Positions 10,879 to 43,471 of a stretch of DNA of 45,222 bases are shown here, piece after piece. Within the stretch, counting starts at the first letter, position 1; the number at the start of each line of letters is the position of its first letter. Origin of the DNA: Patescibacteria group bacterium (GTDB lineage Bacteria; Patescibacteriota; Patescibacteriia; Patescibacteriales; JAQTRU01); NCBI GenBank assembly GCA_028711415.1, contig JAQTSG010000003.1, positions 1-45,222 of the forward strand, read 5' to 3'. The position numbers were made by a program, and so were the translations under genes. The notes below the pieces were generated by a model that was given only the letters and a program-made list of their open reading frames with translations, did not search any database and was not told the origin of the DNA.

Positions 10879-10907
10879 AGAATAAAATAATATAAAATTA
10901 TATAAAA

Positions 10908-10936
10908 GTAGGGACAGCACATTGTGCTGTCCCTAC
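10908..10936. repeat. GTAG-headed REP-like palindrome, copy 2
   Basis: gtagggacagcacattgtgctgtccctac; differs from 189-217 only at the central base. Confidence 0.85.
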
Positions 10937-10966
10937 GTGTTTTTATATTATTTTGTTTTTATTCGT

Positions 10967-14688: not shown

Positions 14689-15024
14689 TAGTAAAAAGTT
14701 TGTAAAGTTGTAAAGTTATAAAGTTTGTAAAGTTTTGTTCTTTTCTCCCATTATATCCCGTACTTTATAACTTTATGGACTTTATAACTTTCAACTGCGT
14801 CCCTATATCCAAGAAAAGGTCATTAATTAATAAGATTATTATAAAATTAACATAATATTAAAATAAGGTCAAGGGGAAAGAAAACCCACGGTGTACGTGA
14901 GCTCTTATTTTAATAGTATATTTATATTTTTATAAATTTTAAATATTTTATGATTTTGATATTTATGATATAATATGTGTATAACTGTTGACAATGGTTT
15001 GGTAATAGGCTAAAGTCCAACTAC

Positions 15025-15419
15025 AAAAAACAAAAGCTCCCCTTATGCACACTCGGGGAGCAATTGTCGGCCACAGCTTTCGCTGTGGTCTTTGGTTTGC
15101 GATAATTATTTTAGACAAGGTAATCGCAAATGGAACCTTGGAAAACTTACCAAAGCTAATCCTTTACGCATGCTGCGAAGGATTTAGCCTTTTTGGGGTA
15201 AATTTTCTTACCATTAACCATCTTCCAACGGAAGAAAATTAAGTGGTAACCCGATTTGCACTGTTTCATGAGTGTCGGTTTATTACGAATAAACGACTGT
15301 TTCTATAGATTTCGGCGCCAACAGTGCAGGTGCAAAAATGCACCTGAACCCGCCGTTTTTAGCAAGTTTAGATGCATTTTTTTACCTAGTAATGATCTCT
15401 GGCAAAAAATATAGCCAGT
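15025..15419 (-). ncRNA. Candidate structured RNA of unknown family (~395 nt) with own promoter and terminator
   Basis: Minus-strand TTGACA (15449-15454), 17-nt spacer, TATAAT (15426-15431); GNRA hairpin CCACAGC-GAAA-GCTGTGG (15071-15088); hairpins at 15327-15346 and ~15152-15184; terminator GCTCCCC...GGGGAGC (15036-15061) followed by TTTTGTTTTTT; no convincing ORF. Confidence 0.65.
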
Positions 15420-15425
15420 ATTTCC

Positions 15426-15454
15426 ATTATAAAGCAAATAATTTTTTTTGTCAA
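15426..15454 (-). promoter_or_regulatory. Sigma70-type promoter for the candidate ncRNA
   Basis: TTGACA-17-TATAAT on minus strand, exact consensus. Confidence 0.75.
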
Positions 15455-15497
15455 ATAGTTGCTGATATAGTGATTGTATTGTTAATATATAGCTATT

Positions 15498-15525
15498 GAC
15501 AAATTAAAAAAATAGAGTATAATAT
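15498..15525 (+). promoter_or_regulatory. Sigma70-type promoter upstream of the 15533 gene
   Basis: ttgacaaattaaaaaaatagagtataat (TTGACA-16-TATAAT); it would give a very short or leaderless 5' end. Coordinates approximate by a few bases. Confidence 0.55.
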
Positions 15526-15532
15526 AAAATAT

Positions 15533-15937
15533 ATGGATTATTCAACTTTAAATTTAAAAAAATTTAGTAATGTTGGCTCTAAGATTAGCAGAAAAATAAG
15601 CATAACTGGGTCATATTCCTTTGGGATACCGCCCGCTTTTTATGAAGAACATGGAATAAAAGATTATTCTTACGCCGTTGTTTTTTATGATGAGAAAAAT
15701 CAGGTAATTGGTGTGCAATTTGCAAAAGAGAAAGAAAAGGATAGTAGTTTTAAATTAATCCCATATGGGAACGAAGTAAAAATGGGTGCCAGTTTCGTTG
15801 CGCGTTCATTTTTTAATACTCATGGCATAGACATTGCTCAAATTAAAGGAAGGTATGACCCCAAAGAACACACCTTCCCGGATATTGGAAAAGTTTTTCT
15901 GATAGATCTCAAGGAAAGAAAGCAACAAGAAGAATAA
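15533..15937 (+). CDS. Hypothetical protein
   Basis: 134-aa ORF with promoter-like sequence upstream. Confidence 0.7.
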   Translation: MDYSTLNLKKFSNVGSKISRKISITGSYSFGIPPAFYEEHGIKDYSYAVVFYDEKNQVIGVQFAKEKEKDSSFKLIPYGNEVKMGASFVARSFFNTHGIDIAQIKGRYDPKEHTFPDIGKVFLIDLKERKQQEE

Positions 15938-15973
15938 AAATTTAAAAAACTGGGTTTACCCCAGTTTTTTATG

Positions 15974-16116: not shown

Positions 16117-16149
16117 AACCCCGTTAGAAAATTTTTTCTAACGGGGTCA
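16117..16149. repeat. ACCCCGTTAGAAAA element (family A), complete palindrome
   Basis: aaccccgttagaaaattttttctaacggggtc. Confidence 0.85.
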
Positions 16150-27306: not shown

Positions 27307-27499
27307 CAAAGCGTCTCCTTTTGTAGGTTTTTGTTAAGGGCTTATTTTAATTTTTAATAAATTAATATATAATAAATTACATAAATCGTCAATTATTTTG
27401 ATATAAATATACTTATTTTTAGCTAATTTTAAATAGTTTTATTATTAATTCGTCAAAAATATTGACAATTTTAAAAATATTTGCTACCCTATTTATATT

Positions 27500-27606
27500 G
27501 ACCCCGTTAGAGATAATTAGAAACGATATTTTTCCGAGTCAGAAGTTTTGAACCAATTATTTAACGGGGTTTATCGCAAAAATAATTATTAATCTCTAAT
27601 GGGGTG
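27500..27606. repeat. Family A inverted-repeat pair upstream of, and overlapping the start of, the TrmB-like gene
   Basis: gaccccgttagagataatt ... ttaacggggt ... atctctaatggggtgg. Confidence 0.75.
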
Positions 27607-32333: not shown

Positions 32334-32406
32334 AATAAAATAATATAAAAATAAAATAATAAAATAAAAAGGCCGATTAAGGTCTTTTTATTTTAATTTT
32401 ATATTT

Positions 32407-32505
32407 ATGAACCCCGTTAGAAATCTAACTGGGGAAACGACAAAATTTCTAAGTCCCGTTAGAAGTAAGACTTCTAACGGGATAAGCGGGGCTAACGGGG
32501 TGAAT
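32407..32505. repeat. Family A composite array at and inside the 5' end of yraN
   Basis: atgaaccccgttagaaatct ... tttctaagtcccgttagaagtaagacttctaacgggataagcggggctaacggggtgaatt. Confidence 0.85.
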
Positions 32506-33357: not shown

Positions 33358-34890
33358 ATGATTTTTAAAAAGAAAGCCGCCCTCTTTATTTTTTTTACTC
33401 TTTTCGCCTTCTTTTTAGCCGGAGAAGCCAGGGCCGGTCAAGTTAATCCCCCGACCATTATTGAACTGGGGGATAAAAAGGGTAAGGAATTCTCCCCCCA
33501 GTTTTTTGTAAAAGGCTTAACTCCGGCTAACACCGAAGTTCTAGTTTATATTGACGGTACCTATACCGATTTTGCCAAAGTAAAAAGAGAAGGAACGGAA
33601 AGCGACAGCTTTTATTATGAGCATCCGACGGCTTTGGCCGGCGGAAGTGAAATAAAGCTTATCGGGCGAGATAAAACTTCTTTAGTTTTGTCTCCTCCGG
33701 TGGAAGTAAAATATATTATTCTTCCCTTACCCGCCCCGACTTTAGTGAGCCCGGCGCCCGAAAAGATAGTGGGTGAGCCCAAGCCCTATATCACCGGTTT
33801 GGTAAAAAGCGGAAGTCTTGCCCATATTTATATTGACGGGGTTTATAACGGAAAAACGAAAATTGTCTCTCACGAATCTGGCACGGCTAATTTCGCTTAT
33901 CAGCCATTTTTGAATTTAGAAATAGGGCCGCATAAAGTCTGGGCCGTAGCTGAAAATGAACAGGGCAGAAAAAGCGGAATTTCTAATGTTTTAGAGTTTT
34001 TAGTTCAAAAACCAATGCCGGCACCGACTTTATTTTCTCCGGTAGTAAATAATGAGACAAAATATAATCAACCCTTTATTATTGGTTTGTCCAAAAACGA
34101 TTCTTCCGTAAAAATTTTTATTGATAATAAGCCGGCTGGCCAGTTTGCCATATTCAATCATCCCTCCGGCACGGCTAATTTTGCTCTTAGACCAGAAGTT
34201 CTAGCCAGAGGCAACCATTCGGTATATGCCACGGCCGTTGACAGCCGCGGTAAAGAAAGCCAGCGATCAAATATTATTTATTTCTCTGTGCGCCAGCCGG
34301 TTATTAGCGGAGGAGTTCAGGAAGAAAGGGGCGGATTGGTGGGGAAAATTGAGGAGCCGGCGAAAGAAATTGAATCGGGTTCGCCTTTGATTGTCTCTCC
34401 AAGCGGAAATATAGAGAAAGAAGATGATAATAATAAAAATAAAGAAATTTCACGGCTAGGAGAGATAGAGGGAATAACCGGTGAGGAGAACAAGGCAGAA
34501 AAAGATGCTTCTGGCGCGGTTAACGAAAGCAGGGAAAAGCAGGGAAAACTAGGTGTGAATTTGGCGGTATTTATTGTATTTATTTTAGCCGTAATCGGCT
34601 GGATATTCTGGGTGAACAAGGAACTGGGCAAAGAACAGCGAGAAAACTCCGTTAGAAAATCCGGCAGAGATGGAAATCACGCTGGGATTATTATAAAATC
34701 CCGTTTAGAGGCCGGTCAGCCCTTGGCTGATAACTCCAATACAGAGCCGAGGGATGTTATTTCTAACCCCGTTAGAAATAAATTTCTAAGCGGGGCTAAC
34801 GGGGTAAATAAAGAAAATCAGGAAAATCCGATTTTGCCCGGGGGAAAAGACAATTCCTCTGATAAGTCGGGAGAAAGCAGGTTGTTTTAA
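33358..34890 (+). CDS. Secreted Ig-like-repeat protein with C-terminal TM and repeat-derived tail
   Basis: Signal peptide; three related ~90-aa modules (APTLVSPAPEKIVGEPKPYITGLVKSGSLAHIYIDGVYNGKTKI); TM LAVFIVFILAVIGWIFWV; NPVRNKFLSGANGVN. Confidence 0.82.
   Translation: MIFKKKAALFIFFTLFAFFLAGEARAGQVNPPTIIELGDKKGKEFSPQFFVKGLTPANTEVLVYIDGTYTDFAKVKREGTESDSFYYEHPTALAGGSEIKLIGRDKTSLVLSPPVEVKYIILPLPAPTLVSPAPEKIVGEPKPYITGLVKSGSLAHIYIDGVYNGKTKIVSHESGTANFAYQPFLNLEIGPHKVWAVAENEQGRKSGISNVLEFLVQKPMPAPTLFSPVVNNETKYNQPFIIGLSKNDSSVKIFIDNKPAGQFAIFNHPSGTANFALRPEVLARGNHSVYATAVDSRGKESQRSNIIYFSVRQPVISGGVQEERGGLVGKIEEPAKEIESGSPLIVSPSGNIEKEDDNNKNKEISRLGEIEGITGEENKAEKDASGAVNESREKQGKLGVNLAVFIVFILAVIGWIFWVNKELGKEQRENSVRKSGRDGNHAGIIIKSRLEAGQPLADNSNTEPRDVISNPVRNKFLSGANGVNKENQENPILPGGKDNSSDKSGESRLF
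34759..34806. repeat. Family A composite inside the Ig-repeat protein gene
   Basis: atttctaaccccgttagaaataaatttctaagcggggctaacggggt. Confidence 0.85.
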
Positions 34891-40062: not shown

Positions 40063-40476
40063 ATGAAAGAAAAGATCTATAAAAATCTATTAGCGGCGTT
40101 TGTAATTATGTTAATTATGGCTCCGGCGTTTGCTTTAGTCCTGCCAGTCCAGGCGCAAGGCCCCGATGAATTACTTTGGGGAAACCAGGAGGAAAATGTG
40201 GATGAAGCATTAGGGTTAGGTAATGAAGACCCGAGAGTGATAATTTCGCGAGTGATTAACGTCGCCCTGGGATTTTTAGGCATTATCGCCGTTGTTATAA
40301 TCATTTTGGGCGGGTTTAAATGGATGACCGCCGGCGGCAACGACGATAAGGTGGCCGAATCCAAAAAATTGATTTTTGCCGGCATTGTTGGCTTGGTTAT
40401 AATTTTAGCGGCTTGGGGGCTTGCTAAATTCGTTATTGGCGCGCTTTATAACGCAACTGGCGCTAACAATGTATAG
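40063..40476 (+). CDS. T4SS-pilin-like paralog 1
   Basis: Signal peptide; RVINVALGFLGIIAVVIIILGGFKWMTAGGNDDKVAESKKLIFAGIVGLVIILAAWGLAKFVI. Confidence 0.85.
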   Translation: MKEKIYKNLLAAFVIMLIMAPAFALVLPVQAQGPDELLWGNQEENVDEALGLGNEDPRVIISRVINVALGFLGIIAVVIIILGGFKWMTAGGNDDKVAESKKLIFAGIVGLVIILAAWGLAKFVIGALYNATGANNV

Positions 40477-40478
40477 TC

Positions 40479-40544
40479 ATTCTTAAAACCGGTTTTAAGA
40501 ATAAGTGGGTTCCCGTCCCGCCAAGGCGGGACGGGATTCCACTT
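40479..40544. repeat. Perfect 24-bp palindrome followed by long nested hairpin between pilins 1 and 2
   Basis: attcttaaaaccggttttaagaat (40479-40502); aagtgggttcccgtcccgccaaggcgggacgggattccactt (40503-40544). Confidence 0.85.
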
Positions 40545-40607
40545 CCCTGGGCATAATATTTTTTGTGTCCAGAGCAAGTGGAAAATAAAAAATAAGGAGA
40601 AAATAAG

Positions 40608-41042
40608 ATGAAAAATATAAAATTAACACTTCTGAACAGGAAAAAAATTATTTTCAGCATTTTTTTAATTGTTTTGTTTGTCGGTTTTGTTTGCGTCCCG
40701 GTTGGACAGGCGCAACCTACTGATCCCGATGCTGTTAATTATGGCTTGGATCGGACCGCCAATGAAGGTTTTAACGCTTATGGCGGGACGCCGGCGCAGA
40801 CCGATATCCCGACTATTATTGGGAGGATTATCGGCGCCGTTTTGTCTTTTATCGGAATTCTATTTTTTGTTTTAGTTATTTACGGCGGCTATCTTTGGAT
40901 GACGGCCAGAGGCAATGAAGAGCAGGTCGGTCAGGCCATTAGTATAGTAACCCAGGCCACTATCGGTCTGATTATTGTGGCGGCCGCTTATTTAATCACC
41001 AGATTCCTGGGGGAGACAATTATAAATCAAGTTATAAGATAA
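40608..41042 (+). CDS. T4SS-pilin-like paralog 2
   Basis: IGRIIGAVLSFIGILFFVLVIYGGYLWMTARGNEEQVGQAISIVTQATIGLIIVAAAYLITRF. Confidence 0.88.
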   Translation: MKNIKLTLLNRKKIIFSIFLIVLFVGFVCVPVGQAQPTDPDAVNYGLDRTANEGFNAYGGTPAQTDIPTIIGRIIGAVLSFIGILFFVLVIYGGYLWMTARGNEEQVGQAISIVTQATIGLIIVAAAYLITRFLGETIINQVIR

Positions 41043-41044
41043 CA

Positions 41045-41482
41045 ATGGTTTTTTTAAACAGCAAAAAATTAATAAGTCTGGCGATATTATCTTTTTTCGT
41101 TTTTTCTTTTCTTTTGACCGTGGGGTTGGCAAACGCTGAAGAGCCTTTAGGCGGCCTGGGAAATACCGGAGTAGGTATAGGTTATAAGACGGGGGGTGGC
41201 GAGGCGAAAACCGGAATTGCCCGTTTAATCGGCAATATTATCGGAGCGGTTATGGCTTTTATCGGTGTTGCCTTTATGGCTTTGGTTATTATGGGCGCGC
41301 TTGATATTATCGGCGCCGGTGGTAACGACGAGAAGGTAAAAGAAGGAAAAGATAAAATAAAAAACGGGGCGATTGGTATTTTAGTGATTTTTGCCGCTTA
41401 TTTACTTACGGTTGTTGTTTTCCGCATAGCCATCGGGAGCCCCGAGTCACCCGAGCTAAATATATTTAAAATCAATCTTTAA
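41045..41482 (+). CDS. T4SS-pilin-like paralog 3 (divergent core)
   Basis: IGNIIGAVMAFIGVAFMALVIMGALDIIGAGGNDEKVKEGKDKIKNGAIGILVIFAAYLLTVVVF. Confidence 0.82.
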   Translation: MVFLNSKKLISLAILSFFVFSFLLTVGLANAEEPLGGLGNTGVGIGYKTGGGEAKTGIARLIGNIIGAVMAFIGVAFMALVIMGALDIIGAGGNDEKVKEGKDKIKNGAIGILVIFAAYLLTVVVFRIAIGSPESPELNIFKINL

Positions 41483-41485
41483 AAT

Positions 41486-41947
41486 ATGGGCAAAGTAGAT
41501 ACGGCAAAAAAATTAATTTGGTTTTCCCGTCCCGCCCTGGCGGTGATTGTTTTTTCGCTTTCTCTCTCTTTTGCGTTAAATGTAAGTTGGGCGCAAACTG
41601 ATGCGCCTAAGTCCGGTATTGGCAACTGGGGAAGCGAATTAGATAAAGGAGTTTCAAAGACAGGTATCTATAATACAGAGGCAACAGGGGGGGGGACGGC
41701 TGTGGCTATAGCCAAATACGTCGGCTGGATTCTTTTTTTCGCTCCGTTCTTCAGTCTTCTTTTTATGGCCAGGGTAGTTTTAGCCGGTTATGAATGGATG
41801 ACGGCGGCCGGTAACAGCGAAAAAATTGAGTTGGCGAAAAAAAGGATTAAGAACGCGGTCATCGGGATCATAATTCTAGCTATCCTTTATTTCCTGTCTT
41901 ATTTCTTTATCAATACTTTTGCCGGATTTACCGGGTATAAAATATAA
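41486..41947 (+). CDS. T4SS-pilin-like paralog 4
   Basis: YVGWILFFAPFFSLLFMARVVLAGYEWMTAAGNSEKIELAKKRIKNAVIGIIILAILYFLSYFF. Confidence 0.83.
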   Translation: MGKVDTAKKLIWFSRPALAVIVFSLSLSFALNVSWAQTDAPKSGIGNWGSELDKGVSKTGIYNTEATGGGTAVAIAKYVGWILFFAPFFSLLFMARVVLAGYEWMTAAGNSEKIELAKKRIKNAVIGIIILAILYFLSYFFINTFAGFTGYKI

Positions 41948-41961
41948 CCATCTTAAATTAT

Positions 41962-42402
41962 ATGGCGCATAAAACATTTTTAAAAAAGTTTATTTTCATC
42001 ATTCTGGCGGTTTTGATAAGTCCGTTTCTAGTAAACGTGGTTCAAGCCGCGGGTGATCCAACAACTTCTTCAATCGGCCCTCTGCTGGAAGTGGCGGGAA
42101 ACGCGGCTAAGTATGAAACAGGGAAGGTAGAAAGCAATGACATCAGCATTCCGAGTATCGCCGGCGGAATTATAAAAATTTTTCTTTCCATTTTAGGCGT
42201 TATTTTTGTCGCTTTAATGCTTTACGGCGGCTATCTTTGGATGACGGCCAGAGGCAATCAGGAGATGGTTACTAAATCTAAAGAGCTGATGACCAGCGCC
42301 GTTATCGGTTTAATTATTGTTATTGCCGCTTACGCTATCACTTATTTTGTCCTGTATATGATGGCCCGGGAATATATTCAGCCGGAGGTCACCGGCTTTT
42401 AG
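41962..42402 (+). CDS. T4SS-pilin-like paralog 5
   Basis: IAGGIIKIFLSILGVIFVALMLYGGYLWMTARGNQEMVTKSKELMTSAVIGLIIVIAAYAITYFV. Confidence 0.87.
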   Translation: MAHKTFLKKFIFIILAVLISPFLVNVVQAAGDPTTSSIGPLLEVAGNAAKYETGKVESNDISIPSIAGGIIKIFLSILGVIFVALMLYGGYLWMTARGNQEMVTKSKELMTSAVIGLIIVIAAYAITYFVLYMMAREYIQPEVTGF

Positions 42403-42517
42403 CTATCCCGCTTAGCGGGACTACAAATTAAGGCATTCGAATTAAATAATATTTGAAGCATTTAAATTTATTTATCTATTGGCAGGTAGAAAATAGGTCA
42501 ATTTTAATTATTAATAT

Positions 42518-42997
42518 ATGTTAAAAATTATCAAACAGGTTTCAATTTTAGCCCTTCTTACTCTGATTTTAACTTTTCCCTATTTTGTTTTTGGGCAGGA
42601 GGCATATAAAGGCCCGACAATGAAGGGCGCGCTGGAAGGATTGGGAGGAGCCAGCGGTTATGAGACAAGTGGCATTTCCGAAACTTCAGTTTCCGCTATT
42701 GCCGGCACGGCCGTAAGCGTCTTTTTAAGCATCTTAGGCATTATTTTTATAGCCTTAATACTTTACGGCGGCTATCTCTGGATGATGGCGCGGGGCAATG
42801 ACGAGCAGCTTACAAGGGCTAAAGAGCTAATAACAAGTGCGGTTATTGGTTTAATTATTGTCGTGGCGGCTTATGCCGCTAGTTATTTTATTTTTGACCG
42901 TTTAACCAGGCAGACCCTAACTACGCCAGCCGGTAGCGGCGGCTGTCCCCCCGGGCAGGTTGATTACGGCCAAGGTTGTATTACGCCCGGCACTTAA
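42518..42997 (+). CDS. T4SS-pilin-like paralog 6, Cys-containing C-terminal tail
   Basis: IAGTAVSVFLSILGIIFIALILYGGYLWMMARGNDEQLTRAKELITSAVIGLIIVVAAYAASYFIF; tail GSGGCPPGQVDYGQGCITPGT. Confidence 0.87.
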   Translation: MLKIIKQVSILALLTLILTFPYFVFGQEAYKGPTMKGALEGLGGASGYETSGISETSVSAIAGTAVSVFLSILGIIFIALILYGGYLWMMARGNDEQLTRAKELITSAVIGLIIVVAAYAASYFIFDRLTRQTLTTPAGSGGCPPGQVDYGQGCITPGT

Positions 42998-43036
42998 GGT
43001 TGGTTATAGCTAAGATAGTTTTAATTATTTAAAATT

Positions 43037-43471
43037 ATGAATCTTTATAAAAAAACAAGATATTTTTTCGCCTTTTTAGTTTTTTCTGTCTTGAATTTTA
43101 GTCTGGCTGATTTAGCCCGGTCCCAGGGCTTTGGTCCGGTAGACGGCGGCCAAGCTGAAGCTTTTAGAAACTCATCCGGATTTGCCGCTGCTGACGGGTC
43201 GTCTTTAGCGCGAATTGTATCGGTTGTAATTCAGGCCTTCTTAGGCCTGCTAGGGGTTATTTTTTTGGTGCTCCTGATAACGGCCGGATATAAATGGATG
43301 ACCGCGGCCGGCAATGAAGAAAAAATGACCGAAGCCAAAGGAACAATCTGGCGGGCGGTAATCGGCTTAATTATTACAGTAGCGGCTTATGCCATTACTT
43401 ATTTTGTGTTTAACAGTTTAGATTGGGTTGGGGGCGGTCCTGAAGCAACCGGCGGATCAGGTTGGGATTAA
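43037..43471 (+). CDS. T4SS-pilin-like paralog 7
   Basis: IVSVVIQAFLGLLGVIFLVLLITAGYKWMTAAGNEEKMTEAKGTIWRAVIGLIITVAAYAITYFVF. Confidence 0.87.
   Translation: MNLYKKTRYFFAFLVFSVLNFSLADLARSQGFGPVDGGQAEAFRNSSGFAAADGSSLARIVSVVIQAFLGLLGVIFLVLLITAGYKWMTAAGNEEKMTEAKGTIWRAVIGLIITVAAYAITYFVFNSLDWVGGGPEATGGSGWD

Follow-up and report, generated by a model that had tools for sequence, protein, structure and literature searches.

A candidate stand-alone structured RNA gene, divergent from a small-protein gene, in a variable slot of a Patescibacteria genome

ROOL and GOLLD are large ornate RNAs of phages and prophages that lie near tRNA islands (PMC12286853). The candidate RNA gene described here is like them in specifying a large stand-alone RNA with multiple hairpins, close to a tRNA gene and within a variable and possibly phage-related slot, although it is ~395 nt long, whereas many GOLLD members exceed 800 nt, and it comes without a sequence or model match and without a known family of relatives. 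In length and in having several hairpins it also resembles tmRNA (RF00023), and in length RNase P RNA (RF00010), but inspection revealed neither the tRNA-like ends of the former nor the core motifs of the latter, and ARAGORN recognized no tag ORF. A third likeness is to type III toxin-antitoxin systems, which pair an RNA antitoxin with a protein toxin, in that a structured RNA and a small protein gene are neighbors within an accessory slot; here, however, the RNA is divergent rather than co-directional, and in place of short tandem RNA repeats it has hairpins that differ from one another. The adjoining 134-amino-acid (134-aa) protein had no match in Pfam, PADLOC, or the PDB that would link it to the ToxN/AbiQ, CptN, or TenpN toxin families, and in the literature we found no paper on RNA antitoxins of Patescibacteria.

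We analyzed a 45,222-nt stretch of DNA (the window), in which an earlier note had proposed a stand-alone ~395-nt structured RNA belonging to no recognized class. Given its complete transcription signals, a fold beyond chance, a GC island, the lack of an Rfam family, and its single copy in a variable slot, we consider the locus probably a stand-alone orphan noncoding RNA gene, perhaps carried as mobile cargo. If it is transcribed, a reduced genome of 1.1 Mb contains a sizeable structured RNA that has no family in Rfam 15; to our knowledge, accessory noncoding genes have hardly been studied in such a reduced genome.

Transcription signals and predicted fold

The proposal had drawn on a consensus minus-strand promoter (TTGACA-17-TATAAT) and a GC-rich terminator with a T-run, both of which we located, the promoter matching at 12/12 positions. 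With the ~395 nt of folding sequence they make up a complete transcription unit on the minus strand, so that 15454-15025 carries the promoter and terminator of its own expected of a stand-alone bacterial noncoding RNA gene. Its features are as follows.

15454-15426, minus strand: perfect sigma-70 type promoter of the RNA gene, TTGACA AAAAAAATTATTTGCTT TATAAT, with a 17-nt spacer
15025-15420, minus strand: predicted ~395-nt structured RNA of no known family (fold z-score, GC island, no Rfam match)
15399-15418, minus strand: 5' hairpin CUGGC/GCCAG (pair probability 0.99)
15328-15387, minus strand: long 5' hairpin AGGU-AAAAAUGCAUCU-AACUUGCU / GGCGGGUU-AGGUGCAUUUUU-ACCU (pair probability 0.88-0.99)
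15258-15327, minus strand: GCACUGUU/AACAGUGC helix of the MFE model, enclosing the hairpin GUCG-UUUAUU-CGU-AAUAAA-CGAC (15297-15274)
15208-15249, minus strand: hairpin UUACCA-UUAAUU-UCUUCC-GUU-GGAAGA-GGUUAA-UGGUAA (pair probability 0.94-1.00)
15141-15207, minus strand: long hairpin GAAAAUUUACC..AAGGCUAA-UCCUU-CGCA / UGCG-AAGGA-UUAGCUUU-GGUAAGUUUUC (pair probability 0.85-0.99)
15094-15137, minus strand: hairpin GGUU-UGCGAU/AUCGCA-AACC (MFE model and perfect-hairpin count)
15071-15088, minus strand: GNRA-capped stem CCACAGC-GAAA-GCUGUGG (MFE model and perfect-hairpin count)
15061-15025, minus strand: intrinsic terminator, GCTCCCC-12 nt-GGGGAGC followed by TTTTGTTTTTT; as RNA (15025-15061), GCUCCCC..GGGGAGC plus UUUUGUUUUUU

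The transcript is predicted to start at ~15420, about 6 nt past the -10 box of this promoter. Perfect 12/12 promoters occur three times in the 45-kb window, compared with 0.03 expected, and one of the three, next to the RNA promoter, drives the divergent ORF. The RNA gene has a GC content of 36-47%, and its flanks have 15-30%. The back-to-back -35 boxes (window 15450-15503) lie inside an imperfect inverted repeat, TTGTCAAATAG .. CTATTGACAA, which is a possible shared operator but may also be due to chance.

The minus strand folds with an MFE of -138.8 kcal/mol, whereas its dinucleotide shuffles give -92.9 +/- 5.2 (z = -8.75, with 0/100 shuffles as good), and the gene holds 4 perfect hairpins whose stems have 7 bp or more, where 500 shuffles averaged 0.32 and never exceeded 3. 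Every minus-strand 200-nt window starting at 15001-15301 had a z-score between -3.9 and -6.1. These scores alone do not make the locus unique, because single windows elsewhere in the 45 kb score lower, reaching z = -10; the spots that we inspected there were mostly palindromes and long terminator-like hairpins. Since the plus strand folds nearly as well (-129.4), we called the strand from the promoter, the terminator, and the GNRA loop, and because the searches described below yielded no homologue for covariation, the fold should be read as a thermodynamic model.

From 5' to 3', this model places a short hairpin, the long hairpin at 15387-15328, the GCACUGUU/AACAGUGC helix around its hairpin, a domain closed by CGG/CCG, and the terminator. 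The closed domain contains an 18-bp hairpin, a ~28-bp hairpin, a hairpin that may form a pseudoknot, and the GNRA stem; the possible pseudoknot, seen by eye, would join CAAGG on the 5' side of the 15094-15137 hairpin to CCUUG in its loop. Among the stems named in the earlier note, CCACAGC-GAAA-GCTGTGG is found at 15088-15071 and GCTAA-ATCCTT..AAGGATTAGC at about 15188-15155. The CAGGTGCA/TGCACCTG stem fared less well, being present as sequence at 15346-15327 but competing with the longer 15387-15328 hairpin, which the MFE model prefers.

Strong folding of both strands, a variable slot, and palindromic elements elsewhere in the window would also be consistent with a hairpin-rich mobile element, or a site of single-stranded-DNA recombination or replication, rather than an RNA gene. 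We regard this as distinctly unlikely, given that a single strand carries both a perfect promoter and a matching, suitably spaced terminator, that we found no second copy of any part of the RNA gene in its own genome, that inspection of the slot edges revealed neither terminal repeats nor a target duplication, and that the hairpins are diverse, with no repeated unit.

Known RNA families, relatives, and coding potential

A strong match to a known Rfam family had been set as a test that could refute the proposal. At gathering scores, Rfam 15 identified 3 tRNAs in the window and nothing at the RNA gene, and a permissive scan of the region (to E 10) returned only chance-level matches (E 0.97 or worse), among which ROOL, GOLLD, raiA, OLE, and HEARO did not appear. 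ARAGORN found no tmRNA in the window. The genome's tmRNA (E 1.1e-51) and RNase P RNA (E 7.7e-65) lie on two other contigs (G000:C56 and G000:C2, respectively), which, despite its fitting size, speaks against the RNA being either of these and supports the proposal as a whole. The size and multi-hairpin layout would also suit a highly diverged representative of one of the large RNA classes already described (tmRNA, RNase P RNA, ROOL, GOLLD, raiA, or omega RNA/HEARO), and ROOL and GOLLD likewise occur near tRNA genes and in phage-related DNA (PMC12286853). However, with chance matches alone even at E 10, with tmRNA and RNase P RNA already present elsewhere in the genome, and with the tRNA-like tmRNA ends and the RNase P core missing on inspection, we consider such a representative highly improbable.

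We searched for relatives of the RNA at several distances. A 416-nt blastn query against 60 related genomes, 2 of them of the same genus, found no homologue; the matches obtained (L011-L017) were short, in or near coding frames, and devoid of shared context, and we rejected them. Among 381 genomes of the class, blastn gave no match. We also used R1 (15253-15068) and R2 (15388-15256), each a covariance model of a single sequence. Across 111 genomes of the order, R1 gave no match outside the window, and across the 381 class genomes R1 and R2 gave none either, except for two isolated R2 hairpins (L060 and L061), which we discarded because their 26-27 bits fall below the 30 bits that R2 scores on the window's own antisense strand and because no R1 match accompanies them. 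Exact patterns were scanned seven times against IMG/VR and once against GTDB genomes without producing a locus with model support, the loci that surfaced being rejected because they matched at the pattern itself only, many of them in coding DNA. Phages and plasmids yielded only short, chance-level matches. As far as tested, then, the RNA appears to be an orphan within 60 relatives, 111 order genomes, 381 class genomes, phages, and plasmids, by instruments that are weak, in that single-sequence models with stricter filters miss distant relatives and the class genomes are a sample. Genuine classes of RNA usually have relatives, so the missing homologues count against the interpretation as an RNA gene.

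The predicted transcript also contains a 37-codon frame (15269-15156, minus strand, ATG..TAG, reading MKQCKSGYHLIFFRWKMVNGKKIYPKKAKSFAACVKD), which raises the possibility that the locus is a small mRNA whose product is this 37-aa peptide and whose folded flanks are untranslated regions. The frame is uninterrupted, protein-like in composition, and located inside the transcript, and it has a weak match (E 0.12) to the phage family PHROG 30400 (41 aa), the matched part lying close to the C-terminus in both. Its coding score of -0.15 bits per codon, however, falls within the range of wrong frames (-0.03 +/- 0.28), against 0.49 +/- 0.27 for the window's genes, and the ORFs within the transcript score below genes. 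Pfam gave no match to it, and 63 genomes, phages, and plasmids yielded no relative that was convincing. It is not preceded by a clear Shine-Dalgarno motif, it follows a folded leader of about 150 nt, and chance ORFs of 51-65 codons occur within the same stretch. We therefore think a small mRNA unlikely.

The cargo slot and the divergent protein

The genes here are ordered pnp (presumably, as named from its sequence), an NYN-domain gene, rpsO, the RNA gene with the divergent ORF, tRNA-Asp, and a DksA/TraR-type gene. The features around the RNA gene are these.

14886-15942, approximate limits: variable cargo slot from rpsO to tRNA-Asp, defined by comparison with genome G001
15496-15523, plus strand: perfect promoter of the divergent ORF, TTGACA-16-TATAAT (12/12), about 42 bp from the -35 box of the RNA promoter
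15533-15937, plus strand: divergent ORF encoding a 134-aa protein whose family is undescribed (relatives, structure model), a possible partner of the RNA

We call the rpsO/tRNA-Asp interval a variable cargo slot because G001, which belongs to the same genus, holds a Panacea pair there instead, namely a gene with a Panacea domain (PF13274, E 1.7e-20) next to an ORF that is likewise of 134 aa. That ORF probably encodes the toxin to the antitoxin-like Panacea gene beside it; toxin-antitoxin pairs of the Panacea type are typically arranged in this way (PMC8832971). The G001 slot corresponds to L019:2138-3131, and the 134-aa ORF in it has no Pfam family.

Relatives of the window's own 134-aa protein are sparse, at 25-51% identity, and were found in 6/111 order genomes (E up to 0.01), 8/381 class genomes, and 3/68 phylum genomes, with the window's own counted each time. 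Pfam, PHROGs, NCBIfam, and PADLOC gave no convincing match to the family. An AlphaFold2 model built from 11 rows reached a pLDDT of 83.9, and Foldseek matched it to uncharacterized phage proteins, such as Gp105 of Lactococcus phage KSY1 (E 1.4e-5, TM 0.58-0.60); against the PDB there was no good match, the best being a plant B3 DNA-binding domain (TM 0.39-0.46, E 0.83). The protein may be a barrel of phage origin that binds DNA or RNA.

We infer that the RNA gene would be transcribed from its minus-strand promoter, that the transcript would act in trans in its folded form, and that the RNA gene and the divergent ORF would have been acquired together as mobile or phage-derived cargo. More tentatively, the RNA and the 134-aa protein could form a ribonucleoprotein, or the protein could be controlled by, or control, the RNA. 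Such a module would be of the accessory kind that slots like this one carry, whether toxin-antitoxin-like, defensive, or phage-derived.

Short RNA units beside relatives of the protein

At no fewer than six relatives of the 134-aa protein, the ORF faces a short convergent transcription unit, whose promoter lies 125-200 nt beyond the ORF and whose terminator falls at about the ORF stop codon. These promoters are consensus-like in most cases and weak in L051 and L066. The short convergent RNA genes lie at the following positions.

L051:1930-1986, minus strand
L065:1395-1456, minus strand
L066:1374-1449, plus strand
L067:1385-1458, plus strand
L068:1372-1448, plus strand
L171:1393-1453, plus strand

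In a hand alignment, the six RNAs share the layout P1-P2-(U)CGAC-P3, their helices differing in sequence yet all pairing, and Rfam matched nothing at those short-RNA loci that were scanned. They are possibly a new RNA family tied to the protein family. A promoter and terminator in convergent arrangement accompany 8/12 family loci versus 8/112 control ORFs, a comparison in which the counting rule was written after the loci had been seen and in which part of the enrichment may reflect plain terminators, because the control includes operonic genes.

Homology between these short RNAs and the 395-nt RNA was considered and set aside, since R1 and R2 found nothing convincing at the loci of the protein relatives; a descriptor of the P1-P2-CGAC-P3 motif was too unspecific for us to claim its presence in the 395-nt RNA. 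The window has no short convergent RNA, the 3' end of its ORF being occupied by tRNA-Asp and its 5' side by the 395-nt RNA. The orientations thus differ, the short RNAs being convergent at the ORF 3' end and the 395-nt RNA divergent.

That the 395-nt RNA and the 134-aa protein belong together as one module is plausible, but we hold it to be less probable than not. It is more doubtful still that the phylum harbors one undescribed family of RNA-protein modules, in which a conserved phage-like barrel protein would be joined by locus-specific structured RNAs, here unusually large. The slot carries toxin-antitoxin cargo in a relative, and the family of the adjoining protein seems to accompany other structured RNAs; if transcribed, the locus is a concrete and testable candidate for an accessory module of RNA and protein that would be new.

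Several other repeats were observed. Beside one relative of the ORF, repeated segments of the GCGTATGCG/CGCATGCGCGG type surround small cargo genes (L063:700-920, 2010-2110, and 2720-2770) and are reminiscent of integron cassette sites. Within the window, a MITE-like palindrome of 70 nt with AT-rich complementary arms, TAGGGACAGCACA..TGTGCTGTCCCTA, occurs in two 86% identical copies (175-244 and 10894-10963), and an intergenic palindrome, CCCCGTTAGAAAT..ATTTCTAACGGGG, recurs at 2390-2413, 16117-16146, 27491-27514, 32401-32424, and 34765-34794. Finally, a run of ORFs of 137-159 aa at 40063-43471, with a 160-nt repeat in five copies of 61-78% identity, is likely a tandem paralogue family.
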